A stretch of 64,000 bases of DNA from Halichondria panicea. Taxonomy: Eukaryota > Porifera > Demospongiae > Suberitida > Halichondriidae. Position 1 is the stretch's first letter, and each line of letters opens with the position of its first letter. A program made the translations under genes and the position numbers. This document shows, piece after piece, positions 5,627-61,884 of the stretch. The notes under the pieces are model-generated. The model ran no database searches, had not been told where the DNA came from, and was given only the letters and a program-made list of their open reading frames with translations. Where the stretch lies: NCBI RefSeq assembly GCF_963675165.1, contig NC_087377.1, positions 7,953,122-8,017,121 on the forward strand, read 5' to 3'.

Positions 5627-5828
5627 CTGTAAGTATAGGGAACAACATCTTTGGTTTAAACTAAACGTAAAAAGGAGGCAGTCAGCTGCGAGGTCAGCTG
5701 GAATTGGTCTATGTACGTAGGCCTATACATCTAGATAGCTCTCTATAGATAATTATAATTAGCACGTAGATAGCTGGTGCAGCTATATAGCTATACATAG
5801 CAACATAATTAATCGACTAAAAACTCAC

Positions 5829-8509: not shown

Positions 8510-8589
8510 TCTGAAATTATCGAGCCAATCATCTCTGGAAAACGTCTTGCATACAATGAAGTAAAACGGTTTGTCATGTAAACAGGGCT

Positions 8590-16235: not shown

Positions 16236-16297
16236 AGTCAGCACTTCACTGACCAACAATACGAGTTTGACCCCGTCTCTGGAAATGTGACTGTGGA

Positions 16298-40130: not shown

Positions 40131-40299
40131 ATTTCATGCATGGGTTCTCTATAACAAGGTTGCATTCAAGTGAGGTGAAAAGGGTTGTACATAGAGTCTT
40201 TGTTCTTTGTAGTACTCTACTGTGCAAACCTATAATTGATGTGCTTCTGACCAAAAGCTGTTATGCACACTAAACCCCTCTCCCCTAAACAACAGACCA

Positions 40300-40555
40300 T
40301 TCACTGTTGTAAATACTGTGCTTTATTCACTAGAAGAATTCACTACCCTTTACCAGTTGTAAATACTGCGCTTTATTTCACTAGAACAATTCACTACCCT
40401 TTACCAGTTGTAAGTACTGTTTTATACTAGAACAATTCACTCCCCTTTACCAGTTGTAAATACTGCGCTTTATACTAGAACAATAATTTTATTCGCTACC
40501 TTTTACCAGTTGTAAGTACGTACTAAGTACTGTGCTTTATTCATTACACCTTTAC
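40300..40555. repeat. ~50-bp tandem repeat, about five units
   Basis: The units share CCTTTACCAGTTGTAAATAC, then TGCGCTTTAT and ACTAGAACAATTCAC, with small length changes. Confidence 0.7.
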
Positions 40556-40604
40556 CAAATGCATGATATAGCATTAGCTGGGCGTGGCCCGGCTGACGGG
40601 TTAC

Positions 40605-41185
40605 TATAGTGTCCAGTCCCAGTTGGTCGACATAGGATTAAATTTTGCAAAACAACGTCACTATTGACTAGCTCCTTGTCTATAGCTGATCATCTATAAC
40701 TCCAGTTTCGGGCTTTTTAGATTACAAACATGCTTGTGATATTGTTCCCTGTGGCTTTGCCGTGTTCTGTGTTTGGGAGAGGGTGTGTCTGAGTAAAGGG
40801 GCTCAGGCTGTTCTGTACTGTTGCTGCTATTTCTGTTTGGGGGAAATCGATCATTAGCTGGGAGTTTTGTCCGGAAATCCGGTCCATTCAAGGATTGCTG
40901 CATATCACTTATGTCTGGAGATTATAATTATGTTATAACAAGCTCATCTACTGTGCCATTCGTGAAACCATTGAAAGCTCCAATACCTGAAGCGGAAAAG
41001 TATGGAATTAATTTCGCATTCGGATCTATCAGAACTTGATTACAATCAGATCCACAATTCTCCTTCTGATGTGGTACTATAGCAGACCATTTATGGTTTT
41101 ATGATTGTTGAATACATGTCACTATAAATTAATAATAGTGTTGGGTACATTTTGTCAAGCTTGAGACACTCTCACCGAAAGACTG
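40605..41185 (-). pseudogene. Broken CARD-Death adaptor copy
   Basis: It follows the intact gene at 58298-59116 closely: shared CCAGTCCCAGTTGGTCGACA, TTGACTAGCTCCTTGTCTA, GGGAGAGGGTGTGTCTGAGT and TATCAGAACTTGATTACAA. It lacks most of the Death-domain 3' end and has several indels and stops. The linker (NSSNSTEQPEPLYSDTPSPK) is the best-preserved part. Confidence 0.75.
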
Positions 41186-42788
41186 TTTCAATAGTGGGCA
41201 CATGTAAAGTGTATCTAGAAAGTGAAAGTACGAAGAGAATGAAGTGATGTCATTGTAATGATGTATGGGAGTAATCACTGTAGTTTGTGTAATCACCGTA
41301 ATTCCGTAATTTTTTCTTCAATAAAGCATGTGTACGTGCATGTATAAGTATGTAGTTGGGAGGCCCTCTTTCGTTGAAAGTACATGTAATATCAGCGTCA
41401 TGTAGGGGTCGATGATTTGATAATCTTGTCCCACGGATGCACATAATTGATGATTGAACAGCAGCGAAGGATAGCTTGCACCTTAACTAGCAGCTGATCA
41501 CTACTGAGTAGTTTTTCCCTTCTTCAGGCAAGCATGTCTGCTAATCTTTTGGTGGCCTCTTGCCCAAGTCCACCTGTGGTTGAGAAGACGAGGGGGGTGA
41601 AAACTCCTTGTGATACAGGATTAATTGCTGTACAAACTTCAGTCTAATAGCACGTCATACGATTAGCACTGTACTGTTGAGTTGGTAGATTATGCTGGCA
41701 TAATTTTGAGCATAATAGGCAAATTTTTTTGGTGAGAATTATGTTGGCATAATAGACACCTTTACGAGAATAATAATTTTATAGACATGCAGGTTTTGAA
41801 AACTTCGAAAAAATTAGACCCTCGAACAATTACAGCATCTAGGATAAAACGTTTGATGGGGAAGATTTGGGCGTGTCACAAAATGGCTGGCTACACCCAC
41901 TTTTATTGACCACACACCCTATTGCATCACAGTAGATCTAGTTATAATAATTATTATTGCACAAGTAGGCTTGTAATCCCAATTTGCCTTTTGACATCCG
42001 AGATCAAAGAGTCTATTGATTTTTAATCGTTTATGATGAAGTAGAAATACTACACATCCTCTAACTAGAAGTTCTCTGCAGTTTTATTAACATTTCCGCC
42101 GCGGCCGTTATTCGCGAAAACAATACGATGTGCAAGTGCAATTACTGGACCAGATGTGATATGCTGTACAAACTCCCATCACTAATAGCACATCATACGA
42201 TTACTGGTTACATATAATTTATATAGTGTGATATTGTAGTGTCAGATGACTGCAACAATTCAATGTTCGAAAATCTTATAAGGGTATACTTTCTGCCAGT
42301 GAGTGATCGAGCTAGTTAGGGTACATTGCTGATTATAATGAGGTGCTTGCAATAATCATACAGCGGATATGCTCTTATCATTATCATAATTATAGCAAGC
42401 ATGTACCTCAATAGATCTATGAAGAAACACCTTTATAAGATCAGCTATATATGATCACCCTACAGAAAGTAGGCATCTATATTGACTATAATTATTGACT
42501 TTTTGTTGTATTATAGTGGCTCAAAGAAGTTTTCCTGAATGTATACCTTCGTAAGATTAGCAAGCATCCTCACTGGCAGAGAGCACACCCTAAAACATAA
42601 TAATCAGTATTATAACCTCATTGACAGTCACCCTAGACACTAATATCACACCATGGGTTTGTTTTGTTTACTGTTATCACTAGTAGTGGTATGTGTTGTG
42701 ACATTAAGTTAATGATTGTTGTGAAATTCACAGTTTAGATTTTGGCTTCAGAGAATTTATGTCTGAATTTGAAAACAAGCCTGTCTAT
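41186..42788. repeat. Spacer with degenerate palindrome repeat 41640-42215
   Basis: 41640-42215 holds pieces of the repeat seen at 22135 and 35490 (TTGGTAGATTATGCTGGCAT, AGTTCTCTGCAGTTTT, GTGCAATTACTGGACC). No gene recognised in the rest. Confidence 0.4.
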
Positions 42789-43253
42789 TATGGGGTACCG
42801 TTTGTGTCAAACACCATTTGTAAAAACTGAATGTTGAAAAAATCACTGTATGGGTCTCCCAATTTACTAAATCAGTTAGTAAACGTGCGTTGTCTGTGAC
42901 GTTTATGTTATGGTGGCCAAGCGGATATCAGCGTATAAAAACTGGCCGACACCTGTACAGCACCAGCAATTTCTCAAAGGGAAAAAAGCACAGTGATTCG
43001 ATCGTATTGTTTGAGCATTGTCGAAAGTTGTATTACGGAGAGATAAAGTGCCTCATGTGTGCAGGGCCGCTGTTTGTGACGTTTTAAAGCGTAAACAGCA
43101 GATAAATGGTTAAGGCTGCAGATGGTAAAGCTAAGTAATTAACACACAGCATGAGGACATTAATCTGGACTACGATTTAGTAAATAGGGGACTGATACAG
43201 TGAAGAGCATTTTAAAGTTTTACATGGTGTTTTGACACAAACAGCACCCCATA
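42789..43253. mobile_element. Fold-back element with TATGGGGT ends
   Basis: The left end TATGGGGTACCGTTTGTGTC and right end GACACAAACAGCACCCCATA match the ends of the element in the receptor-A intron. The enclosed 65-codon frame at 42890 has no recognisable domain. Confidence 0.65.
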
Positions 43254-43344
43254 GTCTATATAGCGCTAGCTATAATTATACTCTGCATGTATGATGTTAA
43301 AGTGAGTTACTGCACGTTTACTCTCTTTATGGTGATTACGGTAC

Positions 43345-43670
43345 ACTCTCGTTAATCCGGCCACCCTTGGGACAGTGAAGCTTGGCCGGAATAGCAAAGT
43401 TGCTGCATTTCAGAAAATAGCCTCGGCTAAAAAAACGACCTTACATCGATCAAAATTTTTGTGGTTCTGTCTCGAGGATAATGAAGGATAGTGAATCAAT
43501 CTGCTCTCTATTTAAGTGTATCTGCCAAACCACACCCAAAACATCCAGCCGTAATAAGAAAACCCAGTATACGGAATAGCGAGTGGCCGCATTTTAGGGC
43601 GAGCTTTGTGCAGTAAACATCTAGCTAGCAATCCGTGCCGAACCAAAATAATGGCCGGTATATCGAGGTG
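43345..43670. mobile_element. CTCTCGTTAATCCGG transposon fragment
   Basis: It starts ACTCTCGTTAATCCGGCCAC and shares, in inverse order, internal words with 59395-59722 (GGAATAGCGAGTGGCCGCAT, CCAAACCACACCCAAAAC). The second end is not recognised, so the copy is incomplete. Confidence 0.5.
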
Positions 43671-44090
43671 GTAACAAAACACCTTATCGCCTTGCATGGG
43701 CTTTGCTGGTTACCACTCAACGGTGTAAAAGTCCCTGGCATACTTGTCAACCAATCACATAAAGCATCATAATTGACCACATAACTTAATTCCACTCAAC
43801 ACAACTTCCACTCAACGCAAATATAAACTTTAGTTAACATAACAGCTCTAGCTCAGCTTTGCAAGGTTCCCTGATCTAGAAATTGCTCCACCCTGTATAA
43901 TTATAGCTACTGCACTACTGCACTCTATATACTTGTCAGTGTTTAATAGCTCTATAAATTACAGCTGTGTAGATCTAGTTTGGCAACAACAGGAAGTTTC
44001 AACTAGACTAACTCTAGATCTATGAGTAATCACTGTTCGGACTGGTCAAAGTTTTGCTGTTAGTGTTGTGTGCAACCAACTGTCTTCCAC
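43671..44090. other. Possible upstream region of the Roco gene
   Basis: No exon recognised. If the exon at 44091 is real, the promoter and 5' UTR of the ANK-Roco-Death gene lie here. Confidence 0.3.
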
Positions 44091-44116
44091 ATGGACACAA
44101 GTCACACGACACAAGA
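44091..44116 (+). CDS. Candidate first exon of the ANK-Roco-Death gene
   Basis: ATG at 44091 opens nine codons (MDTSHTTQ plus a split codon) and ends in a donor (GA|GTAAGG). The leftover phase fits the acceptor at 46423 exactly. With it the whole coding sequence totals 4,098 bases, a multiple of three. It is short, so it could be coincidence. Confidence 0.35.
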
Positions 44117-44422
44117 GTAAGGAAACTTTTAGCTTAATATCATACAAATTATGTTGATTCAGATTGTATAATAATTAATATCTCAAGAGATAAGAGTGTT
44201 GAACTGCTATTAATTAATAACATTTGCCCGTGCAACGCTGCGTCATTGTATGCATGAATACTAGCAAGAGCCCATACGACAGTTAGATCGCAAAGGGTCA
44301 AATTTTTCTGCTGATATGCAAAGGTTTTCACCTGCAAAATATTCTAGTGGACATGTAATATATACGGTAGAAGCTTCTGTAAGGCCACTCTAAGTAACTT
44401 TCTTGTCCTGCAGGACAATAAC

Positions 44423-44897
44423 TACCGTATAGCGGGTAATTAAATTTTGGGTAATTTTCGGGGGGAAAATATCCGTGGTTCAGCAATATTGAGACATTTC
44501 GTGGGTAATATTTTCGTGGTTGGAGCTTGCACTGCAGGTAAGCTAGGTAAGCAAGGTCGCTTCATTCGTGGGTAAAATATTCGTGATCAGACCTTCCAAC
44601 CACGATAACCACGAATATGTTGCCCCACGAAATTACCCTCTATAGTATGAGGTGCCGGTTTGTCTCATTATGTCCATGGGTATTTATTTAGTGTAGCTTT
44701 TCTCATCATGGATTGATTTATGACAGTATGACATACATATAGTAGTACAAGATCATCACCTTCTGATAAATACCCTCACTTTGATAAATACCCATGGACA
44801 TTTATAAGTACCCATGGACATTTATAAATACCCATGGACATATATATCTTACACAGTTTTTAGACAAACGGCACCTCATACTACAGTGTATACGGTA
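44423..44897. mobile_element. MITE with a fold-back element inserted near its end
   Basis: 44423-44645 is a TACCGTATAGCGGG-family copy. At its right end the sequence switches at 44646 to TATGAGGTGCCGGTTTGTCT, which closes as GACAAACGGCACCTCATA at 44883. The expected MITE terminus (TATACGGTA) then appears near 44889. So one element sits inside the other. The inner element has short TACCCATGGACATTTATAA repeats. Confidence 0.55.
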
Positions 44898-45362
44898 TTA
44901 TAGTCAGTCAAGTTGAAGTAGCATTATAGTAAAAAATTTAGACTAATTAAGGCCAGACAGTTCTCGTCAGCCTCCCTCTTACAGCTCTTTTATCACTTTT
45001 GCAGCTACCAATAGCTATAGCGTTCTAGTGCAGATAACTACTAAAGTAGAGCAGCAACACTCCATGATGGACAAGATTTGCTACATATTCTTCTAAAAAG
45101 GACAATAACATTCCAAGTACTGGGTACAGTGGCGTATCCAGCTAGGGGCTCAGGGTGCTCAAGCACCCCCCTAAGTTCAACATTATAATTACTGGATAGC
45201 TGGGAGCTGCATGAGCCTGAGCCTGCATCTATAGCTAGCAAGAGCTTTTATACTGCGGATTGCATGGAGACCACACCTTCATGCAGATATCCAAGTTTCT
45301 TGGGCATGCGTACTGTGTACTGTGACAGCATGCTAGTTAGTGACTCAGGTTACAACCATCAC

Positions 45363-45892
45363 CAGCAGAGGAGAGGACCTGATCACACTCTACCTGAATA
45401 ATTATACAATGGGTTTTGATGCAGATGTTCTGGTGATAGTATATTATCATTGTGCTCTCTCGGCACTATAGCCTATAGTGAGAGCACAATGATACTATCA
45501 CCAGCTAGTCTGAACATCTGCATCAAAACCATTGTATAATTATTCAGCAAATGTTCTGGTGATAGTATATCATTGTGCTCTCACTATAGGCTATATAGTG
45601 AGAGCACAATGATGTACTACCGTATAGCGGGTAATTTTCGGGGGACAAAATATTCGTGGTTCAGCAATATTGAGACATTTCGTGGGTACTATTTTCGTGG
45701 TTGGAGCTTGCACTGCAGGTAAAGGTAGGCAAGGTCGCTTCATTCGTGGGTAAAATATTCATGGTCAGACCTCCAACCACGTAAACCACGAATATTTTGC
45801 CCCACGAAAATTACACGCTATACGGTATCACCAGAATATCTACATCAATATAATTATTCAGGTAGAGTGTGATCAAATCCTCTGCTCTTTTC
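45363..45892. repeat. Large palindrome split by a MITE
   Basis: The outer arms contain GATCACACTCTACCTGAATAA and its inverse; the inner arms contain TCTGGTGATAGTATA and ATTGTGCTCTC with their inverses. The right half is interrupted by the MITE at 45618-45827. Confidence 0.65.
45618..45827. mobile_element. TACCGTATAGCGGG-family MITE
   Basis: It begins TACCGTATAGCGGGTAATTT and ends AAATTACACGCTATACGGTA-like, 210 bp, with the internal landmarks GGTTCAGCAATATTGAGACA and TGGAGCTTGCACTGCAGGTA shared with 44423 and 57860. Confidence 0.75.
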
Positions 45893-46202
45893 TGCTATAG
45901 TATAGCCGCTCAGCAGAGAAGTCTTTCAGTGCACGGTCTAAAGAGAATAAAGACAGCAGTACAATCACACAGAACAATCGACTGACAAGACTATGTCTTC
46001 TACACATAGTGATAAAATACCTGTAGATATTGATATAAATGCATGGTAGAATTGTGATTGTTCTTTGTAAAATCAGTATCGTTGCCTATAATGCGCAGTA
46101 AAACGTGGGTGTGGCTTCCTGTACGTGGGAGGGATCTAAAAATTCCGCGCTGTTGCGCGACCTGAGCACCCTCCTACCAATATTCCTAGAAACGTCACTG
46201 GG

Positions 46203-46372
46203 GTAAACAAAACTAGAGATCGAAGCATTATGTTTGCAAATCCCAGAAGCCTAGAAGCTCTTACTTGCACTTCATTGATCCTTGAGCAGCTGCAGCAGTC
46301 TACACAGACAGACACACAAACACATGCACTACCGTATACCTCGCTTGCATGCGCATGTGCACTGAGGCATAA
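46203..46372 (-). repeat. CCTCGGTG-family fragment, inverse orientation
   Basis: Reading down the minus strand: TGCCTCAGTGCACATGCGCA, GT-rich stretch, GACTGCTGCAGCTGCTCAAG, GATCAATGAAGTGCAAGTAA. It lies just upstream of the first ankyrin exon. Confidence 0.6.
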
Positions 46373-46423
46373 TTCTACACATTTTCTTATTGAGTGACCT
46401 CCCCAACGATCTATTTTGTACAG

Positions 46424-49400
46424 TGCTCAAATTAAGCTAGCCAAGGATTTATGGGAGGCTGTACACCATCGTGATGTCATAAAAGTGAGGTCTCTGTTGG
46501 TACAGGGGGCGGACCCCAACCACCAGTTCTACTGGAGTGAGGAGTGGAGATTAAGGGATCCCCTATTACACAATGCTTGTTATCTGGGCTACCTTGAGAT
46601 TGTGAAGACACTTGTTACCCATGGAGCTCGTACTGATAAAGGTAGTGGTCGGCGTAAAAGAGTTCCAATTCATTGTGCCTGTGAGGGAGGCCATAAAGAT
46701 GTGGTGGAGTACTTCATTCAGGAGGTCGGATGTAGTACTGGTGAGTGGTTTTTAATCCGATGCCGGGCCGCGGCCAGGGTAGTCGTTTTGTCTGTTTGTC
46801 ATTTCTGAGCATGCTCACCTGGGCACTTACAGCCTTCAGACACGTTTAATAGTGGCAGAATTTGCTTCGTTGTCGAATCAAGCTAGTAAATTAAAAATCT
46901 TAAACTTGCACGTTCCATGGCTATATAGAGCTAGCTAGATGTATGCGGCTTTAATTCGAAGCACATGCAGTGGCCATGTAGCTATGTATACAGTGCCTGA
47001 GAGTAAAATACCACAAATTTGTGAGTATAAATGTGAATATCCTGACATTGCAGAATGTGTAGGTGATTGTGTATAATTATAAGTAAATGATTGAGCTTCA
47101 ATATAATTATCCCAAACATGTAAACTGAGAGTGGTGCATGGGTATAATTATGTGCATGGTGCATACTTTTTAACACTAGCTATATAGCAGGCCTGCTCTG
47201 CTATGGACTCCCAGTGCATGTCTTATTTGTAGGCTCCTTTGCTAACTCTGCTGTGTGCATGTATGCCTGACCATGCACAACTGCCCTTTTCAAAGACTTG
47301 TCATTATCTTGTTTTCCTCTGCATGTATAGTTTAGGTAGTTTCTGCTAGGTTTCCATGTCATAAATTATAATAATTGTGCCAACAATCTGATGGTGAGAC
47401 GTACAACTGTCGTGAGATTTTAGTATTTTAGTTATTAATTGTGTCTTGATAAAATTCGTCCATATCTGATATTAATGTTATTATTGTGATAACAATACTG
47501 TATATAGGATGCCTTTTGTGTCAAACTTATTCTCATTCATTGCTATATGCCGCTATGTATTACATGCATTATTATGTATGCCATAGCCACGAAGTCATAA
47601 TACACTTACCATGCACAAAGTCAGTCATAATGCACTTAACACAAAGTCATGCACCTACGTAGGTACCACAAACACCTCTGGCGATAATTATGTATATAGA
47701 CATTATAAGCCTGGGGGACACAACCTTAATTCAGAACGCCTACATAATTATGGGTCAGATTTGTCTGCGTAATTGCATTTGTGCAATTACGCTGTGCATG
47801 GGCTAATAGGAAGCTACGTACAGGCTTACTCTAGGAACACCCACAATCAGAGCCTCCAAGTATACGGTTTTTTCCGGATTTATACGGATTTCTGTCTTCT
47901 AATACGGTTATACGGAATTAACTGCAAAAATACGGATATACATGTAGATCTAGAAGACTAGAAGTGACCTTTTGTCAGCTTTACATAATAAGTTAACTGG
48001 CCTTATAGTTGACAGTGAATGATCTAGTAGCATCCCTACAGCTGTAGTAGCTCTATGCCCTATACTGGTAGTAGTCTGATACTGAAAGACAGCTATAAAT
48101 TTATCTTGTAAAGCCAAGTCTCGCTTGCCACGCCCCTTTATTGAAGGGGCGGGGAAATTACAAAGCCACTAAAAAGCATTTCATCTCATTTCCATGTTTT
48201 GTACTGAAAATTATCATTAAATACGGAAAAATGAGCTGATTAATACTGAAAAGAAAAGTCTCTACTTGGAGGCTCTGCACAATAACGTACGCGCTAATGG
48301 GATCAGTAGCAGAGCTCTATGCGCTTAATTCAAGAATACGCTTATATTGTCGTCATTTCGATCCCCACCTAGTAACCGGATGATTGTCTCTGTGACGAGG
48401 GATGACTCGATTAGCTAGAGCAAACTAGCCAAGCTAGATCTATATCACACTGTTATGTTACAGATCATGGCTGCCCTAGCTATAGCTACCGTAGATGTAT
48501 AGGATAGACTACACCTAAGAGTAGAATATGCGTCTATGTAACCTCCGCGGTTGCGGTTAGCCCGAGGCGCAAAGCCGAGGGAATCTAACCGTAACCAAGG
48601 TGGTTACTAAGACGCATATTCTACGAGTGGGTGTGGTCTATCTAACTTGGACTTCATTGCGCATGCGCGAGGTGTGGTTATAAAAAGCCAGGTTTGGTGC
48701 GTAGCAACAGAAATTGAATTTGTGCGAGCTAGACGAGCTGGACGAGCTGTGAGAGACACCAGTTGACAGAAAAAGACAAGAAGACAGCTTCAAAACAACG
48801 AAAAACTACAGTAAAACTTAGTAGAGATTGTGAAACGCTTTTTGAAGATACTGGAAAGAACAGACAAGTAAAAAGAACCTAGAACTGACTGCAACACTAC
48901 AAGAAGAAGAATGAAGCTCTGTGGTGGAGTGGACTGAGACTGGACCGGCATGGAACCTTAAAAAATTCAATGGAAAGTGTCAAGCGATTGCTGAAGTGTT
49001 TTTGATGCTTCCTGGTCCCCCTGCCCATGCCCAACTGGAAATAGCAATACAAAGCAACAGTGGACATGGAAAGAATGGATATTGACTGAACAAACTATTG
49101 CTTTCTGTGTTTTATAATGTTTTTGTCATCTTCTTGTCACTTTCACTAAAAATTTCCTTCCAACTTTTGAGAACTTCCTACAAATTATTTGTCACTTCCT
49201 GTAGAATATGCATCCATTTCCTGTAGAATATGTGTCCACTTCCTGTAGAATATGCGCCCATTTCCTGTAGAATATGCGTCCACTTCCTGTAGAATAATTA
49301 GTACCTTCTTGTAGATTATGCTTCCATGTATTCTAATGTTTTTAGCCAATCAGATCAATTACAGATGATGTAATGTAGTCTAAGTATGAAATTAGCTGAT

Positions 49401-52400
49401 AAAACTAATATCCCTCGCATAATTGACTTCAATTCGAGTACAAAAAAGCTGCGCCTGCATGGTACTCAATATCCAACAGTTAGTTGTTTTTTTGCTTCTG
49501 CCCAGCTGATTATAGACGTCCTGTTAAATTAGATTCCGTATAATACGTAAATATTCAGTTCGTAATGTACAGATGTAAAGGACGATCATGGACAATCACC
49601 ACTTGACCTAGCTCTGGATCAGGCTGAGCATCTGTATGCAGTTGATGGCTGTGTGGATGTTGCCCTCTACCTGATGAGCCGTGGCTGTGGTAGTGATGAA
49701 GACAAAGCTAAGTTACTGTGTGGAGCATGTCAGTGGGGAAAGCTGGGTGTGGTGAAGGAACTGGTTGAAGAACACCAAGTTGACCCCACGAGTGAGTGTA
49801 CTTGAGCAACACAAAGTTGACCCCAAGAGTGAGTGTGACCATCTTTTAATGGCCCTCTAGTATGTGTTCATCGTGAATCATTCAACTGTGATATCAGTGA
49901 GTACTTACACTTACATGAGTTCAGACTTGAATAGACCTATACCTAGTCTATACCTATATAGGTACTATCAGCTTAGTGCTCTGAGCCGCTGTCCTCGAGA
50001 ACAAGCGTTCGAAAAATAGCATATGTTCGATAATTGCATAGGTGCCAACCTCCAAAGAAAAATGTTCGGGGCATGAGGAGATTTAGTTGCTTTCTGCGCA
50101 TGCTCAGTATGATCATCCTGGAGAGCCCCAACCAGAAAAACTGCAAAGAGTGCAGCAGCCCCACCCCTCTTTTCTAATCAATGTTTTGATCGTAGCAATA
50201 GGACGGACAGCATAGTGCAAGAAACTGAATTCTGCTCATGATTTAAACTTTCAAGCCATAGCTTCAGTATAGTTGAGCTTCTTTGGACTGTATTATCCCA
50301 GTTCAGGAGCAGCAACCTTGAAAATCCGGGACATTTCAGGTAAATAGCAATTTCCGGACGGAACACAGGACAGATCGACCCTTCATATCCGGGACAGTTG
50401 GCACCTATATGTAATGGATGGTTTACTCTAATTACCCCCTTCCCAAAAATCCTGGCTACACCCCTGTTATTATTGTGGGGCAAACTGGGTGTGATGAGGA
50501 ACTTTTGATCACAAAGTGGTCGTCCTGCTTACCTACTTTTTGGCTGTGTAGATCTAGTTTAAAATCATTGCTCCCTCACTCCAAGAATGTTAAAGTACGA
50601 TGTGTTTTGTGCAGATGTGAGGGACGATGGCAATCGGACCCCTCTCCATATTGCATGCTCTGGGGGACACAGAGATGTGGTGCAGTACTTGGTGGTGAAG
50701 GCCAACTGTGATATCAGTGAGTACAACACAACCCCCGAGTAGTATTCCTGGTGCTCAATTCGTGTATATAACCGTTGTGTTTGACTGTATATGTAATGTA
50801 CAGATGTGAGGGATGATAAGGGACAGTCACTACTGGACATAGCTCTAGAACGTATGTATATTATTGGGTGTGTGGATGTTGCCCTCTACCTGATGAGCCG
50901 TGGCTGTGGTGGTAGCGAGGAAAAAGTCAAGTTACTGTGTGAAGCATGTCAGTGGGGCAAGCTGGGTGTGGTGAAGGAACTGGTTGAAGAACACCAAGTT
51001 GACCCCACGAGTGAGTGTACTGTGCTTTTAAAATGGGCCTCTTTAGTATAATGTATTCGATCATACCTGACAACTGTGATATTTTTTAGTGCAACACAAC
51101 CCCCCATGCAGTGCATGCATGTTATACTTTTGTTCCCATCTATACGTACTCTTGTTCAGGTGCAACTGATGAAGATGGTGTGACTCTTCTTGACATCGCT
51201 ACACAGAAGAATATCACTAAAATTGCTGACTACCTCAAGTCTCTGCCACAACAATGTAAGCTCACAAGTACACAGTGTGGTCCAATACAGCTATATGTAC
51301 TCTCTCTATAATTATACAGCTGCTGTGACTGGAGAGAATGACTCTAGGATTGAGGATAATATACCACCACCAACAATGAAACAAAAAGGTAGCTTGCTAT
51401 TTGAAATCACTGATTGAAAACGTTCATGTAACCACTGCAGTGACCTCTGACTCTCTCTCTGGTAAACAGACACCCAGTGCTGGCAAGGAACGACCAGAAA
51501 CAACTGGTAGGAGACACTATAGCTAGCTACGTACTATAGGCCAACAATGAGCTAGCATGCTTATATGCTTGGTAGATATATTATTACCTGTCACTCCTAT
51601 AAATTAATTATTATTATGTTCACAAAATTAATGTACATTATGTGTTGCATGACGCATTGTTCGTTACTTGTACCTTCAGATACTCCAAACTGTTTCAAGC
51701 AACTCTTTTCTTCAAAATATGACGAAACCTCATCAAGTGAGTGTAATAAAATAAGCCATTTGAATCAGTGATTCTGTGGTGCTGATTAATAATTATGTAC
51801 ACTGTTATAATTTTACATCACGACTAACTCTTATGCCTCGAGGCTACGCAATTGTGTAATGATAACACGGAAGGGACTGTATGATTTTATACGTACTATG
51901 CATTGGTGTTCTTATTATTGCAGTGTTTGCTGGCACTCCATTGACTGAGGAAGACTCTGATGCTCTACAACAACTGCTCCTAGACAACAAAATTGAAGGA
52001 TTTGCTTTGACTGGTGAAAGGACATACGAAAAAGTTGTACACCATCTTTGTGAGCAAAGACAAGAGGAACTAGCTACAAACCTCAGACGAAACCTCGACA
52101 AAGGTAAGTAGTAGATAGATGTTGAATATTGCATTGAATGAAGCAGCCTAGCTTGTAGATGGCATAATTGATGTATTGGCATCTCTTGAACAGATGAAAA
52201 TTATCACACATTTCACAGTGATTACACAGTTGCTTTAAGTCACTTTTTCATGAAAATAAGAATACAAGCATAATTATTATGATTGAATGACATGGGTTCA
52301 AAGGTAGCCAGGTAGAAAACTGGTTTAACAGGTCAAACTGTACAAATGGCAGGCTTTACACGAGACTAGAGATAACGTGACAGCATAAATCCTTTAGAAC

Positions 52401-55400
52401 AAAAATAACCAAAAGCGTGTATTTTAATGCTGGTGCACTCGGATGCATGGACCGTAATGCGCTCAATATTCGTTGTATTAATTGTAACGTACCATGCATG
52501 TGCGTATTTAATAATAGTTAGCCTCGATCCTAGGCCGCACTTCCTCGAAGAGTGGGAGCTAGTGAAGGAGGCTAAATAAGCCTGCTAGTTACTGTAGGTA
52601 CATTGCCATGCATATAAAGCTTTGGCAGCTCCACCGGAAAAATCAGCACCTGTTCATTAAAGTCCATATTCCATTACAATCATATAGTTGTGGTGTATTC
52701 TGAGGGATATGCTTGAGTCTAGTTTATAATGTATACAACACATGCATGTTTGAGATACCGTAGAAACTGCGTTTGCTCGATTATAAGCATATCTTTATTT
52801 TAAGCGCATGCTAATTATGCAGTGCTTGGAGAGCAGAAGCATTATTTGAAAAAATTGGACGATCTGATGACTGACAAAGAAACTATCTATATACAATATC
52901 TCCGACTCCTTCTTGTCGGGCCACCATTTGTGGGGAAAACAACAACCCTTAGTCGTCTGCTGAAAAATATCGAAAACATCAGTTCTGCTGGAGACAAGAC
53001 AAAGCTATGCAGTACGCTACTCACCAATTGCGATCAAGCGGTCGTCTACATTAACAAAGATGCCACAGAATGGGTTTGTTCCAAAGACGCGGACGAGGAA
53101 GCAAAGATCCTCTTCGGCTACATGTATAGTAATAAAATCGATGACGCCCCAAGTGAGGAAAAGAGGACAAAAACTGGCTTTTTGAGCGAAAATCACACCA
53201 AACCTTCTCCTGAAAAGCCTCAACCAACGCCTCAAGAAGAAACCCACACTGAAAGACGAGAAAAAGCTTACCAACAGAACAGGTTCCTACACATCAAGAC
53301 ACGGCTTCAAAAGCTGATAAAGAGTGGAAACTACTCCCAAATGGCCAAATGTCTTGGCAACACCTTGCTAAACATCAACGATGTCGGAGGTCAACCAGGC
53401 TTCCTGAAAATGCTACCAGCCCTATGCAACGGTCCAGCCATGTATCTAGTGTTCTTGGATCTGAGCAAGGAACTTGACAAGCCCTACGAAATTCCCTTCA
53501 GTCGTGACGCCACAGTTAACACTCCTTTCAAAGCGATTCACACAGTGGAAGCTACTGTCTCTCAAATTCTCTCAGCAGTTGCCAGTGTCCATCATGTCTC
53601 AAGACCCTTGTGCAAAACCTTCAAATTAAGTAAGAAGTTTGAAACCTTCCAGCAAGTTTGCCCAGTAGCAGCTTTGATTGGTACTCACATGGACCAGTTG
53701 AAAAATCCGAAAGAGAAAATCAAGCAGGTCAACGATGCTCTGAAAGTGACCACTGAAAAGTTTGCCGAGATCCTGGTATCACCTCCGTCAGATTCTGAAT
53801 GTTCGTTTTTTGCCGTGGACAACTTTGCTGGAACCGAACAGTCTGACATTGCTCCGATTCGTGATTTCATGAGCAAGGTTTGTGCCTCTCACTTCAACAA
53901 TGCATCTCTGCCCATCAAACCGAAGTGGCTCCTACTGGGTACACTACTGCGGATGGAGTACTCAGTCTCAATCGTATCCGTGAAAGACTGCCTGGAAATT
54001 GGGAAATTGTTGGAGATGGATAAAGAAGATACAAAATTCTGTCTTTGGTATCTTCACCAGATAGGATCTATCTTACACTACAGGAATGTTCCTAATGATG
54101 TCGATGGCTGGCTAAAGAACCACATGTTTTGCACCCCTGAAGTGATCTTCACTAGCATCAGACAACTGGTGCTTCCCGCTTTACGCCTCCTCCATTCTGA
54201 AGGCCACGTCACTGAGTTTGAGCGAGCAGAGTTCATCAAGATGGGGCAATTTTCATTGAAAGCCATGATCAAGTACTGTACTGGCTCTGAAGTTACAAAG
54301 ATGCTCAAAGAAGGCAAGATTATCCCAGCCAAGCAGCTCATTATACTGCTTCAGCATCTCAACCTTCTCTCTGAAATTGTCCACAAAGATGCCAATGATC
54401 CAAACGTTACTCGAGTCACCTACCTGATGCCAGCTATTCTGGACTGTGCTTCACAAGATGAGTTTACCAACCCACCTCAAGCAGACACCAACAACCCAGA
54501 ACCACTCTACATCACATTCAGCTTTGGTTACGTACCAACTGGAGTCTTCTGTGGGATGATCGCTCGACTAGTTTCCCAAGGCCCCCATGGAATTCTCGGA
54601 TTGATGTGGGAATTAATGGAAGATGCCGTCAAACAAAACTACGTCTCCTTTTATGTTGACTATGTACACAAAGTGACACTGCTCTCTCACGACAGAAGCT
54701 ACGAGATACGAGTTGAACGCAATGCAGAACAGATCGATTTCTCCCTTCACGATCTTTGCTCCCACATTTTGTCAGCAATCCTGTATTTGCTCAAGAACCT
54801 ATTCCCAAAGTTGAACTTCAGTGTTGCATTCCAATGTTATTGTTCCCGGCATGCAGCAGGCAAGACTCTCAACAACCTTTGCACCCTCGTTCAAGGCAGA
54901 AAGATTCACTTTCTGTGTGGTAGAAATCCTGTCACCCTCCGTGAAAGACAACAAGTGTGGTTGGGAAAGGTGGGAAAACATACTGTTCTTGTGTTGTATA
55001 TTTACCTTAAGGTGACATATTTCACAGGTATAGATTTGTCTGTTAATTCACTGTTTAGCTCATTTTTTTCCTCGCACAAACAGCACGTATCTCTAGGAAG
55101 CAGTACGAAACTAGAGGTACTAAAGTTTGCTGAGGGTGGTTTCTCCTTTCACTGGACCAAAGAAGGCTCCAGGCGTCATATCAAGACAACTGATGATCGG
55201 CCCAACACTCTCAGCTTTCAGAGTGTGAGTGAAGAGGACTTTGGTCATTACCAGTGTGAGGTGAAGGATCAAGCTGCTGGGAAAGTGGTCCTCAATCTCT
55301 ACATAGCTCTCTACAAAGAGAAGACAAGTGAGCTATCTAACCTTAAGTAATTACTATCTACGCCTGCCTTAAAGTTTTATCAAATCGTATCATGCAGATT

Positions 55401-56566
55401 TGTATATTGTTATTCGAAAGCTTTAAGTCAGGGAACTACATTGTCTTGATTCCTATACCCTTTTATTGTTGTTATCTCCACACATTAATTTTATCAGAAT
55501 AATTATGGCTTGTATAAGATCACATGTTTTATTGCTTACTACCCTTCAGTCCAGGCCGATTAAAATACGGCCTGGTATGCATGTGTGATAGTGCGCATGT
55601 GCTAAATCCCATGCATTGTATGTTGAAGCTAGCTAGTTGTGGCTAAGTTATGCCTCTATTGTTGTCGAGAAGTCTTGTACACTATATGAATATTGTAGAA
55701 GTAGATGGGAGCCTCTTTCTGGCTTCAGACAAGGGCTTATAAAGAGAAGGGGGCATGCGACTCGACTATTCTCACACTCATTAAAGTCATACTGTTACTA
55801 TTTTTAGACATTCTGCATTGGCAGAATTCCATATGAGTTACATAATAATAATAGTGAGTGCAGGCCCTTTTTCTCTTTATAAGCCCTTGCTTCAGACTAT
55901 AGTGTGCAAGCCTTCTCGACAACGCAATACAGCCTGGTATATTGTATGGGTGATAGTGCATGTGCAAACTGAATCTGGGGAATTCGTTCTTCTACGTTAG
56001 TAAACCTTTGTAAATTATACCTGTTTGATTTTGTCTCCCGTGAAGCTGTGGCTTATGCCCTCTATTTTAATTGGCCTGGATTCGAAGCTAGTTGCTTACC
56101 TAATTATTGCTTATACTTGGTATCTGAACAATGCTAATAGTTTTATTATCTGTATACTGTAGACCATGCATGAGTATTATATTTACTTGTACGTACAGGA
56201 TCATCATCAGTGAAGGATACAAACAAAGAAAAAAGTGCAAACCAGCCAATTGTTCTGACTGGAGCGGATATTCAAACAATTTGCGAGGGTCTCAAAACTG
56301 CAAGCAATAATTGGTTTAAATTAGGATTGGCTCTCGGACTGAACTTTTACGAGTTGAAAAACATAGAAAGCCGCTACCAAGATAACGGTCGCCGCCTAAT
56401 GGAGATGATCGGCAAGCGTCTTGAAGTCACTGATCCAAAACATCCAATTACATGGCCTTACATATGTCAATGTCTAAGGAGTCCTACTGTTGAGCGTAAC
56501 GATGTAGCTGATAAAATCAAAGACAGCTATATATTATGTGTGGACAGCAACTGCAGTTCCTTATAG
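46424..56566 (+). CDS. ANK-Roc-COR-Ig-Death protein (Roco family, DAPK1-like without kinase)
   Basis: Exons: 46424-46740, 49573-49791, 50615-50716, 50804-51010, 51160-51255, 51320-51388, 51441-51506, 51680-51736, 51924-52103, 52823-54969, 55084-55327, 56199-56566 (plus candidate 44091-44116); about 1,365 residues. Ankyrin repeats occupy roughly residues 10-310 (RTPLHIACSGGHRDVVQYL). A Roc GTPase starts near 447: P-loop GPPFVGKTTT (~480), DVGGQPGF (~633), GTHMDQL (~733). A COR domain follows (KPKWLLLGTLLRMEYSV; FCLWYLHQIGSILHYRN). Then come an Ig-like domain (FSFHWTKEG; DFGHYQCEV; first Cys absent) and a C-terminal Death domain (NWFKLGLALGLNFYELKNIE). ANK-Roc-COR-Death is the DAPK1 plan minus the kinase; the Ig insertion is unusual. 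The 114-bp intron 54970-55083 is in frame, so a retained form would add 38 residues. Likely a cytosolic signalling GTPase in cell death or immunity. Confidence 0.85.
46741..49572. repeat. First large intron of the Roco gene: several repeats
   Basis: 46757-46830 is a fragment of the 5130 repeat. 46985-47065 resembles an arm of 34136. 47848-48277 is a fold-back (CAGAGCCTCCAAGTA ... TACTTGGAGGCTCTG) with ATACGGAT-type words. About 48530-48635 is a palindromic stretch (AGAATATGCGTCTATGTAAC ... TTACTAAGACGCATATTCT). 49185-49330 is a tandem repeat of ~22 bp (TTCCTGTAGAATATGCGTCC). No exon recognised. Confidence 0.5.
49792..50614. other. Intron of the Roco gene with a hAT-like end
   Basis: Near 50438-50468 CCAAAAATCCTGGCTACACC then CCTG resembles the inverse of the CAGTGGCGTAGCCAGG terminus at 10676. 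The left partner was not identified. 49792-49850 repeats part of the preceding exon (CACAAAGTTGACCCCAAGAG), a trace of local duplication. Confidence 0.4.
52104..52822. other. Intron of the Roco gene with MULE and CCTCGGTG fragments
   Basis: TAGCCTCGATCCTAGGCCGC at about 52519 is a MULE-like end. CTTTGGCAGCTCCACCGG with ATCAGCACC near 52620-52650 is a CCTCGGTG right end. Nothing else seen. Confidence 0.4.
55328..56198. repeat. Last intron of the Roco gene: MULE-like and fold-back repeats
   Basis: CAGGCCGATTAAAATACGGC near 55553 is a MULE-like fragment. 55640-56060 carries pieces of the inverted repeat seen at 24674-24880 (TTGTCGAGAAG / CTTCTCGACAAC). 55735-55890 is a fold-back (CAAGGGCTTATAAAGAGAAG ... 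CTCTTTATAAGCCCTTG) like 29273. Confidence 0.5.
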
Positions 56567-58297: not shown

Positions 58298-59116
58298 TTA
58301 ACTACATGCATGGATGCATACATTGCGAGCATCTTCACCTTTCCCAAACTTCAGTGCCATGGTCACCAGTGCTCGATACGTGGCCGATTTAGGATCGCTT
58401 TCCTTCCAAAGTTTCAATGCTTCTCTCATCGCTCCTTGATGGTTCTCAACATACTCTACTTTTAATAGATCGGCTTGCTTACTAGCGTCCAGTCCCAGTT
58501 GGTCGACATAGGTTTTATAATTACCAAAGCAACCAGCTAGGATTTGAATGTCACTATTGACTAGCTCCTTGTCTAGCTGAGCATCTGTAACTCCAGTTTG
58601 GCTTTTCAGATCAGCCATAGTCAGATTACAAACAGGCTTGTGGCTTTGTGTTCTGTGTTTGGGAGAGGGTGTGTCTGAGTAAAGGGGCTCAGACTGTTCT
58701 GTACTGTTGCTGCTATTTCTGTTAGGAGGCAATCGATCATCAGCTCGGAGTCTTTGTCCGGAGGTCCGGTCCATATCAAGATTGTCGTCACTCGTGTCCG
58801 GAGCTTTCAAAATGTCGTCATATGTTTTGACAAGCTCACCTACTGCGTTCTTCGTGAAAGCTCCAGCTTTTTTGAAGGCTTCAAGAAAAGTGTGGAATGC
58901 TTTCGGATCTATCAGAACTTGATTACAAACAGAATCCACAATTCTCCTTGCTTTATCGTCGTCATTGTGATGAGGGTTGCTGATGAACTGAAAGTCTTGT
59001 GGTGCTAGCAGACCATATGGTTTGAGCTCAGTGGATACAGTACCAGGTGATTGTTGAATACAGGTCACTAGTGTTGGGTAACATTTTGTCAAAGCTTGAG
59101 ACTCTGGAGAAGTCAT
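58298..59116 (-). CDS. CARD-Death adaptor protein 1 (RAIDD/CRADD-like architecture)
   Basis: A single uninterrupted frame of 272 residues, from ATG at 59116 to the stop at 58298. Residues ~8-90 form a CARD-like helical bundle (KCYPTLVTCIQQSPGTVSTE; DFQFISNP; DDKARRIVDSVCNQV; FHTFLEAFKKAG). A polar linker (RLPPNRNSSNSTEQSEPLYS) follows. Residues ~165-265 form a Death domain (MADLKSQTGVTDAQLDKEL; YKTYVDQLGLDASKQADLL; MREALKLWKESDPKSATYRA; LVTMALKFGKGEDARNV). CARD plus Death in one small protein is the layout of vertebrate RAIDD/CRADD, which bridges a Death-domain platform to a CARD caspase; the same role is inferred here. It is convergent with the Roco-Death gene. Two broken copies exist at 13435 and 40605. 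A MULE-type fragment begins ~15 bp upstream of the ATG. Confidence 0.82.
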   Translation of the reverse strand: MTSPESQALTKCYPTLVTCIQQSPGTVSTELKPYGLLAPQDFQFISNPHHNDDDKARRIVDSVCNQVLIDPKAFHTFLEAFKKAGAFTKNAVGELVKTYDDILKAPDTSDDNLDMDRTSGQRLRADDRLPPNRNSSNSTEQSEPLYSDTPSPKHRTQSHKPVCNLTMADLKSQTGVTDAQLDKELVNSDIQILAGCFGNYKTYVDQLGLDASKQADLLKVEYVENHQGAMREALKLWKESDPKSATYRALVTMALKFGKGEDARNVCIHACS

Positions 59117-60088
59117 ACTTTTATGTCAGTCGCTTTTATAACGGTTAGGCAAACAACTAGTATTGATAGACTAGCTACTCCCATGTCCCCACCCCTAAAG
59201 TCACTCCCATGAATATAATTTGGTTTTTGAAATTCATAATTAATTTACCTAGCCTTCACAAGGCCTCAAAAGTCAGTGCAGCCTGGAATCGAGGCTACTG
59301 TTATGCTTGCTTATGGTCGAATAATTATTACCAGCTTTATCTTGATCCGTTTCTCAGCACACAAACCAATAAAATTATTGATAAGATTATGTAAACTCTC
59401 GTTAATCCGGCTCTCTGAATTACGGTTCCCTCGATACGGTCGTTTCGTTTGATACGGATTGCTAGCTTGATCATTACTGCTCACCCTGAAATGCGGCCAC
59501 TCGCTATTCCATATACTGCATGGTCAATTCTGGTTGCCTGAAAATTATAGATTTTGGTTACAGCTGAATATGACGTTTTGGGTGTGTGGTTTGGCAGATG
59601 AATATTATTGGATTACACTTACGCAAAATCAATATGTAGCCGCGGCTATATTCTGAAATGCAGCCACTTCACTATTCTCGGCCAAACTGCACTGTTCCAA
59701 GGGTGACCGGATTAACGAGAGTCTACTATAATAGAGTACCGACATGAATCGTATCGATTAATTTTATGTCTTGACAATGATACACAGATCCACAGTCATG
59801 CATGTAATGCACATTTCGTTAACAATTTACTTCTGAATACTGCATATTAGAATGAGAGATTTGTACATCTTCAACCGTCTTCCAAAGTCCCATGCTGTGA
59901 AATACAGCCACTCTATAGTGCTCTATAATAATAGGTAGCCAAACATAGTATAATAATGGTATAATTGATTACACAGAATGAATGTGAAAGGCAAAAAAAC
60001 TAGCACAAACCTAATTCTGTCATTTCACTAAAAACCTACCATATATATAAAAGAGTCATGATCGACATACACCTGAACTGCATCAGTA
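59117..60088. repeat. Spacer between the two CARD-Death genes
   Basis: 59131-59297 is a MULE-like fragment (CGCTTTTATAACGGTTAGGC ... CTGGAATCGAGGCTA). 59395-59722 is a transposon with ends ACTCTCGTTAATCCGG and CCGGATTAACGAGAGT, no coding frame. No gene seen in the rest. Confidence 0.6.
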
Positions 60089-61326
60089 CTACATCACTTT
60101 CTCGGCGATGTGCTTTGCCATCCCAGTAGCTATGTATCCTTTATCCATATCCAGCATGATCTCCAACAGGGCACGATAGGTTGCAGCAAAGGGATTAGGA
60201 TTTCGCCATTGTTTCAAAGCTTCCACCATTGCCGTCTGTGTGCCTCTAAGATGATACAGATCTTTGATGTCTGTTTGCTTGCCTGGTTTCAGTTCGAATT
60301 TATCAAGGTAGCCATCAATACGATCGAAATATCCTGCTAGAGACTGTAAGTGTCTGTCTTCAATACATTTCTTGAGTTTAGTTTCAGTGAGTCCTTCAGT
60401 GCCTTGAATGAGTGCTTCAATCGTGAGTGCTTGTACAGCTGATCGAGCTGGAGGGAGAAATAATGTTCAAGTTTTGAATTTGAATCAAAAATATTGTTGT
60501 GTGAAGCAAGAGTATCTATCGTACGTATTCTATTTTAGGTGACCCTAAAAAATGAGACGTTTTATATACACAGAACTAATTATTATCGTATTCTAGAATG
60601 GCATCAAACATATGCGAACTTTGCAAGTGTTTGATCACTACGCAAACGCAAAACCTAAATAAGTACTGGTATTTACACACGATTCTTTCCAGAACGCAAT
60701 AGTTAGATCACAAAGGGTCAACATTTTTCTGCTGATTTGGCTCACATAAAGTTTTTCACCATCTAGTAATACGGTATAGGAGAAATGTCCAATTGTGGCA
60801 TAGCTAGACTTGTGTGACGCCAAACACAAGTAGGTTCCGTCTTTAATAAAAATTATTATAGTACTTTAATAAGGGTACAGATTCTCTACCAAACGTAAGC
60901 CTCATTAATGGTCACTGAGTTAATAATGGTCAGTGTCAATTTTATGGTGTATAAATTATGTGGCGTACGTTTTGCTTCAGCTCTATCACCATTTCCTTTG
61001 TTTAAGGCCGTCCCAGTCAGACTCTTGTACTCGTCTTCTAGAGCTTCCACCAAGTCCTTCGTCCACAGTCCAGTTGAATGTAACGCTTCCACAAACTCTA
61101 GAAATACACGGGTTTTCTTTTCTTGGTTGCCAAAGTCAAGCCTAGTGTTCACAGCTGCTATTATTCTCCTAGCTTTTTCAGCATCATCGTGCATTTGATG
61201 GGCGATAAATCTCTCGTCTTCAGGAGACAGAAATGCCTTTAGTCGATCAGCAATGTCTTTAGGGGCCCGTGAAATACACTTAACAAGCTGAACATTACAG
61301 TTCACAAGAGTAGTCTTTTCAGACAT
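60089..61326 (-). CDS. CARD-Death adaptor protein 2
   Basis: Two minus-strand exons, 61326-60990 and 60447-60089, give 231 residues. The acceptor is CCTCCAG|CTCGATC. The donor at 60990 (AATG|GTGATA) fits the phase; a second donor a few codons on (AAAC|GTACGC) also fits. Exon 1 is a CARD (VQLVKCISRAPKDIADRLKA; FLSPEDERFIAHQMHDDAEK; ARRIIAAVN; VFLEFVEALHSTGLWTKDLV). Exon 2 is a Death domain (LIQGTEGLTETKLKKCIEDR; LAGYFDRIDGYLDKFELKPG; MVEALKQWRNPNPFAATYRA; LLEIMLDMDKGYIATGMA). It is clearly homologous to the neighbour at 58298 but shorter in the linker, and unlike it keeps an intron between the domains. The read-through of exon 1 into the intron is not coding. Role as for adaptor 1, by inference. 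Confidence 0.82.
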
Positions 61327-61884
61327 CTTGACAATAATTATTATGTGGTAAAGGTTTATCAGCCAGAAACACAAGTTGATTTACGTGTTTCAAGTAAATA
61401 CAAACTAAGATCCTTACCATAAACATAATGAAAGTAATGTAGATCTAGTCAGCACAGTGTCTCTGTAATATATAGTACAGTAGATCTACTAGATCTAGAT
61501 CTACTAGCCTAGATTGAATCGAAGCTAGATCTAGTCATTCCAGGTCTATATTAAATACCCAGCTCGGCTCCCTTTGCAGGCTATAAGCTTAGCAGTTGCC
61601 ACAATCACCACCATTAATTAATACTGGCCCGACTGCATGGTCCTCCAGCTCATGGAGTCATGCCTTGAGACAGTCACCCATGCATGGAATCATAAATATG
61701 CTGAAATCGAGGCTACAAAGTTGGCAATAGTTAAGCTGTCGACTATAACACATGATGTAATAGTATACCCCCCCCCTCCGAATATTAATTTTGTTCATCT
61801 TGAATTATATAGACCCATCCGATCTCCCTATAATTATATAGTGAGCAAGTGCTAGAAATGCTAAGTGTACGACATACTCTCTTT
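61327..61884. other. Upstream region of CARD-Death gene 2
   Basis: Contains AGATCTACTAGATCTAGATC palindromic words (61490-61510) and a run of C (61771-61778). No gene recognised; the promoter of the adaptor gene should lie here. Confidence 0.35.

Follow-up and report, generated by a model that had tools for sequence, protein, structure and literature searches.

The locus

The stretch of DNA analysed here, referred to throughout as the window, comprises 64,000 nucleotides (nt) of the genome of the sponge Halichondria panicea (contig NC_087377.1, positions 7,953,122 to 8,017,121; G000:C1:7953122-8017121 in our numbering), and the genome searches covered 131 Mb in 39 contigs. An initial annotation, made from the sequence alone, had placed a Roco GTPase with ankyrin repeats, an intracellular immunoglobulin (Ig)-like domain, and a Death domain at positions 46424..56566. 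All of the motifs it named are present on the forward strand, namely GPPFVGKT (about 52918-52941), DVGGQ (about 53380-53394), and GTHMD (about 53680-53694) of the GTPase, the tryptophan (55153-55155) and DFGHYQC (about 55237-55257) of the Ig-like domain, and a Death-like exon. A 13-exon splice model spanning 46230-56566 on the forward strand reads as one open frame of 1391 amino acids (aa), with the modules in the order ankyrin repeats, small helical exon, Roc-COR GTPase, Ig-like, Death-like; the order given by the initial annotation is thus borne out by this model, and it recurs in paralogues. All introns of the model are GT-AG, and all are phase 1 except the one after exon 1 (phase 2) and the one between COR and Ig (phase 0). 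Judging from frame and splice sites, the 13 exons probably make up a single transcript. The exons and the short intron between COR and Ig are as follows, with the basis for each in brackets.

46230..46333, forward strand: candidate first coding exon with ATG, phase 2 out (frame fit to exon 2 and GT donor; unsupported by homology)
46424..46740, forward strand: ankyrin-repeat exon (Pfam Ank 46.7 bits for its open reading frame (ORF); 72-73% identical exon in one paralogue, L022/L031)
49573..49791, forward strand: ankyrin exon, phase 1-1
50615..50716, forward strand: ankyrin exon, phase 1-1
50804..51010, forward strand: ankyrin exon, phase 1-1 (duplicate of 49573-49791, protein 75-77% identical)
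51160..51255, forward strand: last ankyrin-like exon, phase 1-1 (L022 counterpart 73% identical)
51320..51388, forward strand: linker exon (L022 counterpart 68% identical)
51441..51506, forward strand: linker exon VTSDSLSGKQTPSAGKERPETT, phase 1-1 (frame; similar stretches in L018 and L023)
51680..51736, forward strand: linker exon (frame and splice sites only)
51924..52103, forward strand: small exon preceding Roc, LTEEDSDALQQLL..., helical by eye (six paralogues 68-75% identical)
52823..54969, forward strand: Roc-COR GTPase exon with GPPFVGKT, DVGGQ, and GTHMD (motifs; Pfam COR-A and Roc, sub-threshold)
54970..55083, forward strand: stop-free intron, 114 nt (GT-AG; six paralogues have an intron at this site)
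55084..55327, forward strand: Ig-like domain exon, phase 0 in and 1 out (Pfam Ig families; PDB profile search)
56199..56566, forward strand: Death-like terminal exon (class A) with stop at 56566 (Pfam Death, sub-threshold)

The domains had been described as lying all in phase, which holds for the spliced frame over 13 exons but not for the unspliced sequence: COR and Ig share a single 848-aa ORF because the intron at 54970-55083 has no stop, and the Death-like exon is a separate exon joined at a phase 1 junction. The same-place intron is about 135-440 nt long in six paralogues, compared with 114 nt in the window gene. Similarly, the right-hand end of the original extent coincides with the stop at 56566, but position 46424 is a 3' splice site, which puts the gene start further upstream. 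No homologue of the candidate first exon was found upstream of the ankyrin exon in one paralogue (L031). An exon at 51470-51506 in our first splice model was discarded, as it breaks the frame; its omission gave a protein of 1369 aa, and its replacement by 51441-51506, following the similarity to L018 and L023, is in phase and gave the 1391 aa of the present model. The highest 19-residue hydrophobicity mean in the 1391-aa protein is 1.51, and no stretch with the hydrophobicity typical of a membrane helix was found in it.

Domain assignments

The domains were assessed with Pfam (cut-offs in bits: Ank_2 27.3, 'ig' PF00047 21.8, Ig_3 30, I-set 23.7, COR-A 35.3, Roc 27, Death 22.6) and with profile searches against the PDB. 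The Pfam search of the spliced protein, proposed as a check by the initial annotation, recovered the ankyrin and Ig parts above cut-off and left Roc, COR-A, and Death below. On the 1369-aa model, Ank_2 was far above its cut-off (123.8 bits) and PF00047 slightly above (22.4 bits), while Ig_3 (24.5 bits), Ig_2, and I-set all fell under theirs; the 848-aa ORF gave COR-A at 19.1 and Ig_3 at 26.4 bits, and the Death exon scanned alone gave 19.6 bits, under the Death cut-off. With Roc, COR, and Death sub-threshold in the window gene, their identification rests on motifs, position, and paralogues. The Roco motifs G1 (GPPFVGKT), G3 (DVGGQ), and G4 (THMD) occur in sequence and are followed by COR, the arrangement expected of the Roco (Roc-COR) family. 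When seven members including the window gene were aligned (alignment A5), Pfam recognised COR-A and Roc in all seven, at 19.7 and 17.4 bits in the window gene and with best E values among the seven of 5.8e-6 and 4.2e-4. The PDB search returned weak matches to the Roc domain of LRRK2 (E 0.1). The small exon at 51924-52103 matched no Pfam family above cut-off.

The Ig-like exon has an Ig sequence profile with the conserved tryptophan and YxC of the immunoglobulin superfamily. Among paralogues, the Ig exons of L023 (ig 28.1 bits) and L029 (Ig_3 30.2, ig 25.9 bits) exceed a Pfam cut-off, and those of L027 and L030 do not. In the PDB, the 60 best of 110 chains matched by the Ig profile are Ig-superfamily proteins by name, and the matches include otk, contactin-2, DSCAM, and titin; the best whole-chain E value was 5.7e-9, a figure that sums several domains. 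For the terminal exon, an exon 58-65% identical follows the Ig exon in L022, L023, and L026, and its fold is putatively that of a Death domain.

Scanning the spliced protein with Pfam, we found no kinase, NACHT, leucine-rich repeat (LRR), or caspase-like domain, so the window gene shows neither the kinase of the DAPK1 group, nor the NACHT and LRR of NLRs, nor the caspase-like domain of paracaspases. Upstream, the three forward frames of 37000-46400 gave no Pfam family at E up to 0.1, a scan that would miss a kinase on small exons or further upstream. The absence of a kinase noted in the initial annotation therefore stands for both of these regions.

A family of at least 55 genes

The initial annotation dealt with one gene; that gene looks real, and it is one of at least 55 related genes, in which the Death-like exon comes in three classes. 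A second Roco clade also carries Ig-like exons. The Roc-COR exon used as a query (716 aa) has at least 70 matches in the genome, its own copy counted (62 of 333 candidates scored), and these merge into at least 55 genes including the window gene, the other matches being 48-84% identical; both counts are minimum figures, as scoring was limited to the best candidates. In all 55 genes, Roc-COR is followed on its own strand by an Ig match, 53-1466 nt past the last Roc-COR match, compared with a chance expectation of about 0.02 of 55, so the association exceeds chance. The query for this census was the Ig exon of L023, which found 70 places, 69 of which were used (one overlapping duplicate was dropped).

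A Death-like exon follows the Ig exon in 50 of the 55 genes at a distance of 271-3286 nt, the first such exon being of class A in 10, class B in 16, and class C in 24, as counted from the 72 best of 150 class A matches, from 65 of 119 class B matches hand-picked partly for nearness to the genes, and, out of two lists of 150 class C matches, from those on contigs C1, C4, C6, C8, C10, C13, and C14 with doubles entered once. The chance expectation, calculated with all 569 matches in the four lists, is 0.39 of 55. For 37 of the 55 genes, the 15 kb upstream contain a homologous ankyrin exon, as placed with all 112 genome matches of the ankyrin exon at 46424-46740 (E up to 1e-8, own copy counted). 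The Death and ankyrin counts are likewise minimum figures, and adjacent genes could be the source of some of these matches. Another gene, on contig C6 (L032 with L029), was read with the full order of ankyrin, small exon, Roc-COR, Ig, and Death (class C). Reading 2.6 kb upstream in L018 and L023 showed no ankyrin exon, and the census has one at 5.1 and at 7.5 kb ahead of their Roc-COR. The repetition of this order, on one strand, across many paralogues speaks strongly against these modules being separate genes.

L018, L027, and L028, considered at one point to lack a Death exon, each have one of class B. Of the 16 genes in which class B comes first, 7 have two class B copies. The class B exons stand in tandem about 750 nt apart at L018:1723-2906 and L027:1876-3143, each with an acceptor and a GTGAGT donor, which could represent tandem domains or alternative exons. 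Around 2.53-2.63 Mb of G000:C1, several class A Death exons lie about 1 kb ahead of ankyrin exons on the same strand, which suggests Death-ankyrin proteins made from the same modules. Of the Ig places, 14 have no Roc-COR match nearby (6 with stops, 5 further fragments of at most 48 residues, and 3 apparently intact), and a class A Death exon lies downstream of 4 of these. Twelve Roc-COR copies on contig C1 (e.g., 1536534-1537781) are about 80% identical over positions 2-410 of the query, most of them with a second match from 410. One of these copies, L073, has an intron within COR that is missing from the window gene, pointing to intron gain or loss among copies.

Conservation of the Ig exon and selection

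We read the Ig exon in 49 of the 55 genes (40 fetched anew and nine earlier); of the six left out, two each lie on C10 and C8 and one on C14, and the sixth belongs to the gene at C6:1196386, whose Ig match has stops. A phase-0 acceptor, a phase-1 GTNAG donor, and the absence of stops are common to 48 of the 49, the remaining one (L050) having no such donor. Across the 48 intact exons (44 distinct), the tryptophan and the F-strand YxC are invariant. The position of the B-strand cysteine, taken from the contactin-2 alignment, is valine in all 48, and the F-strand cysteine is kept, so that the canonical B-F disulphide of the immunoglobulin superfamily is missing. Loss of this disulphide is expected for an Ig domain in the reducing cytosol, and the valine fits a cytosolic domain.

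The ratio of nonsynonymous to synonymous substitution rates (dN/dS) between the window gene and six paralogues is 0.21-0.27 for Roc-COR, indicating clear purifying selection. For Ig it is 0.34-0.59 in pairs with dS above 0.5, which indicates moderate purifying selection; three very close pairs gave 0.96-1.5 on few changes. Purifying selection on the Death exon is weak.

Mosaic structure of the paralogues

Seven of the genes were compared module by module. For the COR end there are two types, 53-57% identical to each other; the first half of the Ig exon likewise has two types (31-36%), and the Death exon falls into two classes. Written as COR end, Ig, and Death, the combinations are 1-A-A in the window gene and L023, 1-B-B in L018, 2-A-A in L022, 2-B-A in L026, 2-B-B in L027, and 1-A-B in L028, so that each pair of modules shows all four combinations among the seven genes. 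The first 260 columns of the Roc-COR alignment are 99-100% identical among L018, L023, L026, and L027; despite this near identity, the COR end of L026 and L027 is 55-57% identical to that of L018 and L023, and the first half of Ig in L018, L026, and L027 is 36% identical to that of L023. A clade of the genes with type B Ig is rejected by the COR-end data (approximately unbiased (AU) test, p about 5e-61) and by the front of Roc-COR (p 0.01).

Within the Ig exon, the two-type first half (columns 1-40) is followed by a second half that is 73-95% identical across the seven genes, which places exchange breakpoints inside the exon; mean entropy is 1.00 in the first half and 0.51 in the second. In 25 genes scored as A or B for Ig type and for Death class, the four combinations number 7, 10, 3, and 5, with no association (Fisher p 1.0), although a weak association would escape detection with 25 genes. 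The Ig exon at C6:5867274 had been filed by percent identity, which gave 7, 9, 3, and 6 (p 0.69), and was reassigned when it was found to read as type A (L051). We interpret the mixed combinations as traces of exon shuffling and gene conversion between paralogues.

A distant second Roco clade

We fetched 14 further loci with Roco genes about 25% identical to the window gene. An Ig-like exon directly past COR is found in 11 of the 14, as detected with a profile built from four of these 11, and the four that were scanned reached at best 12.9-15.4 bits in Pfam, all under cut-off. A Death-class exon lies downstream on the same strand, by position, in 11 of the 14, and was not found in L009, L010, and L016. 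The view that this clade has no Ig was abandoned: the profile of the window gene's clade (clade I) had missed it, and reading the exons after COR revealed another Ig-like type. As a query, the Ig-like type of the distant clade (clade II) found 15 exons genome-wide, 4 of them with stops, and 14 of them lie 630-917 nt past a COR-A match. An alignment of the two types with hhalign (probability 6.5%) gave no support for close kinship. Not all Roco genes carry Ig, as 36 of the 60 COR-A matches in the genome are followed by neither type, with 10 followed by clade I Ig and 14 by clade II Ig (24 clade I Ig places entered).

At five distant-clade loci (L011, L012, L013, L016, and L024), an additional Ig exon precedes a Roc. 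Four of these exons were scanned: three exceed the I-set cut-off (26.9, 26.7, and 24.4 bits), and that of L011 falls under it, with 22.4 against 23.7. It is possible that the distant clade includes Ig-Roc-COR-Ig-Death proteins, with putative membership of these exons in the same gene.

Comparison with known systems

The initial annotation had taken this combination to be possibly undescribed, and had pointed to the layout of DAPK1 and to MALT1 as a precedent for Ig beside Death. We likewise found no Roc-COR-Ig-Death architecture described in the literature searched, which leaves out most subscription journals. MALT1 is a cytosolic protein with Ig domains beside a Death domain, in the order Death-Ig-Ig-paracaspase. 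The likeness lies in having Ig and Death in one protein; here the order differs and the Pfam scan found no caspase-like domain, so MALT1 is a loose precedent. DAPK1 has an N-terminal kinase, is not known to have an Ig domain, and stands alone in its group in humans, as opposed to at least 55 copies here with an Ig match in 55 of 55 and no kinase found. The window gene shares with DAPK1 the ankyrin repeats (Ank_2 as above), and its C-terminal Death-like exon, under the Pfam cut-off, is a putative counterpart of the DAPK1 Death domain; the likeness is one of topology, with no sequence tie to DAPK1 established. The window gene is most likely a member of neither the DAPK1 nor the MALT1 family.

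DAPK1 belongs to Roco group 3, having Roc-COR followed by a C-terminal Death domain and no LRR (PMC6337361), and contains ankyrin repeats (PMC12365538). In the literature searched, the nearest systems are ROCO genes of Trichoplax, LRR-ROCO genes of brown algae, and ROCO proteins of actiniarians and Aplysia. Trichoplax has at least 17 ROCO genes, an expanded set in which some carry Death or CARD (PMC4104024). These resemble the present family as expanded animal ROCO genes with Death or CARD, but their partners are tetratricopeptide repeat (TPR), LRR, and AAA, and the available text of that paper has the term immunoglobulin 0 times and mentions no shuffling (PMC4104024). The LRR-ROCO candidate immune receptors of brown algae are likewise expanded and exon-shuffled, but there the shuffled part is the LRR exons, and LRR-ROC-COR is given as the sole structure, with no Ig or Death (PMC11378527). 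Roc-COR is also fused to Death or TIR in the actiniarian NG3 and the Aplysia TIR/MyD88-ROCO proteins, which differ in having kinase, TIR, or LRR partners and few copies; no Ig with Roc-COR is mentioned in the parts available (PMC5094078, PMC9334734). NLRs, including sponge NLR repertoires, likewise pair an NTPase switch with Death-fold domains and are lineage-expanded, the switch being NACHT rather than Roc-COR. COR is named in the legend of an NLR figure for Dysidea (PMC12909245). Ig is joined to a NACHT switch in the sea cucumber AjNLRC4, a membrane protein whose Ig is extracellular (PMC8699970).

Interpretation and alternatives

Taken together, we consider it probable that the window gene is a protein-coding member of a large, lineage-expanded, module-shuffled family of cytosolic Roco proteins, NLR-like receptors or scaffolds with Death signalling. 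The N-terminal ankyrin array, and perhaps also the Ig domain, would bind a ligand or partner, and Roc-COR would dimerise and be the GTP switch. The Ig domain, having no usual disulphide, would be a rigid interaction or spacer module in the cytosol, and the C-terminal Death-class domain would recruit Death or CARD adaptors to start NF-kB-like or cell-death signalling. By analogy with NLRs, exchange of exons and segments would pair varied COR ends, Ig domains, and Death variants into an internal receptor repertoire with interchangeable outputs, and the family may have an immune role. A bolder version, which we put forward only tentatively, is that the sponge has a second NLR-like system of intracellular receptors built on Roco instead of NACHT, in which a fixed Roc-COR-Ig chassis is combined with different versions of the Ig halves and COR ends and with Death domains of three classes through gene conversion and exon shuffling, the Ig domain being suited to the reducing cytosol.

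Several observations weigh against this interpretation. Some concern the domains themselves: COR-A (17.9 bits), Roc (15.5), and Death (14.0) are all under cut-off in the 1369-aa model, and per-domain matches of the Ig profile in the PDB are weak (best stretches with i-Evalues of 0.1-0.27 in two alignments). All Death copies scanned, whatever their class, score under the Pfam cut-off (19.6 and 19.3 bits for class A, 21.6 and 18.3 for class B, 15.5 and 22.4 for class C), and the class A copy of L026 has no Pfam match at all. The class A profile found no Death domain in the PDB and one unrelated match, and the class B profile found TNFRSF25 at E of about 0.8, ranked behind an unrelated match. Death class A is also weakly constrained, with dN/dS of 0.42-0.90 against the window gene. 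With regard to shuffling, the front of Roc-COR groups L022, L026, and L027 in the same way as the COR end does (support 89), so that the signal for exchange of the COR end lies in divergence depth and not in branching. In the census, which scored the best candidates, no Death exon was found in 5 of the 55 genes (two on C10 and one each on C13, C14, and C4) and no ankyrin exon in 18 of the 55, and some of these genes may truly be without them. There are in-frame stops in 14 of the 70 Roc-COR matches, 12 of these being a single TAA in copies on C1, and the Ig match of the gene at C6:1196386 has two stops, so there may be pseudogenes among the 55. The TAA had at first looked like damage; in L073, the one C1 copy read, it lies inside an intron with a GTAAG donor and a CAG acceptor and flanks 80% and 84% identical to the window gene.

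Among the alternatives, the family might serve intracellular distinction of self from non-self, with variable Ig and Death modules for tissue compatibility rather than for microbes. In favour of such an allorecognition role, the family is large, mosaic, and partly clustered, and the first half of the Ig exon is about twice as variable as the second. We nevertheless regard this as unlikely, since the predicted protein, unlike known surface allorecognition proteins, has no membrane-helix-like stretch. Equally improbable, in our judgement, is a housekeeping regulator of DAPK1 type whose kinase was lost and which expanded by drift through tandem and segmental duplication, with no receptor role. 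Its topology is near that of DAPK1 (Roc-COR then Death with no LRR, PMC6337361; ankyrin, PMC12365538), and the clustered copies suggest that duplication is still going on. Drift of this kind does not sit well with an Ig match in 55 of 55 genes, three Death classes, purifying selection on Roc-COR and Ig, and the failure to find a kinase. Least credible by a wide measure is an artefact in which the Roc-COR, Ig, and Death exons come from neighbouring genes or alternative transcripts. The argument from phase is admittedly weak, as the 848-aa ORF crosses an intron, but the order and strand are constant, with Ig in 55 of 55 genes and Death in 50 of 55, and the Ig exon is intact with the same phases in 48 of the 49 read.

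The large families of internal receptors in animals are best known as NLRs. If a shuffled family of cytosolic Roco receptors is indeed what the sponge has, Roco GTPases would be a further platform diversified by animals for recognition inside the cell or control of cell death, and the Ig domain would be a standard cytosolic part of such proteins. The family would also help to test the reason for the link of Roco proteins such as LRRK2, DAPK1, and MASL1 with immunity and cell death, and it provides a clear case of module shuffling between paralogues.

Other features in the window

An Rfam scan of the window found nothing above its cut-offs. A Myb/SANT ORF (72.7 bits) at 6504-7004 on the forward strand lies beside a DDE_Tnp_4 transposase ORF (96.3 bits) at 7727-8629 on the reverse strand, a pair that we take to be typical of Harbinger/PIF elements. 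An open frame of 782 aa at 16271-18616 on the forward strand contains a reverse transcriptase domain (RVT_1, 108 bits). Receptor-like exons, sushi- and fibronectin-III-like by eye, are found at 2226-5660 on the reverse strand and 26418-27965 on the forward strand; three of their ORFs scanned with Pfam gave one weak fn3 match (12.5 bits).

Downstream of the Roco gene, three adaptor-like ORFs lie on the reverse strand. The first, at 58301-59125, has a Death match of 18.5 bits (under cut-off) after an N-terminus that looks CARD-like by eye. The second, at 60092-60466, has no Pfam Death match and aligns with the Death-like part of the first, and the third, at 60889-61380, resembles by eye the N-terminus of the first.

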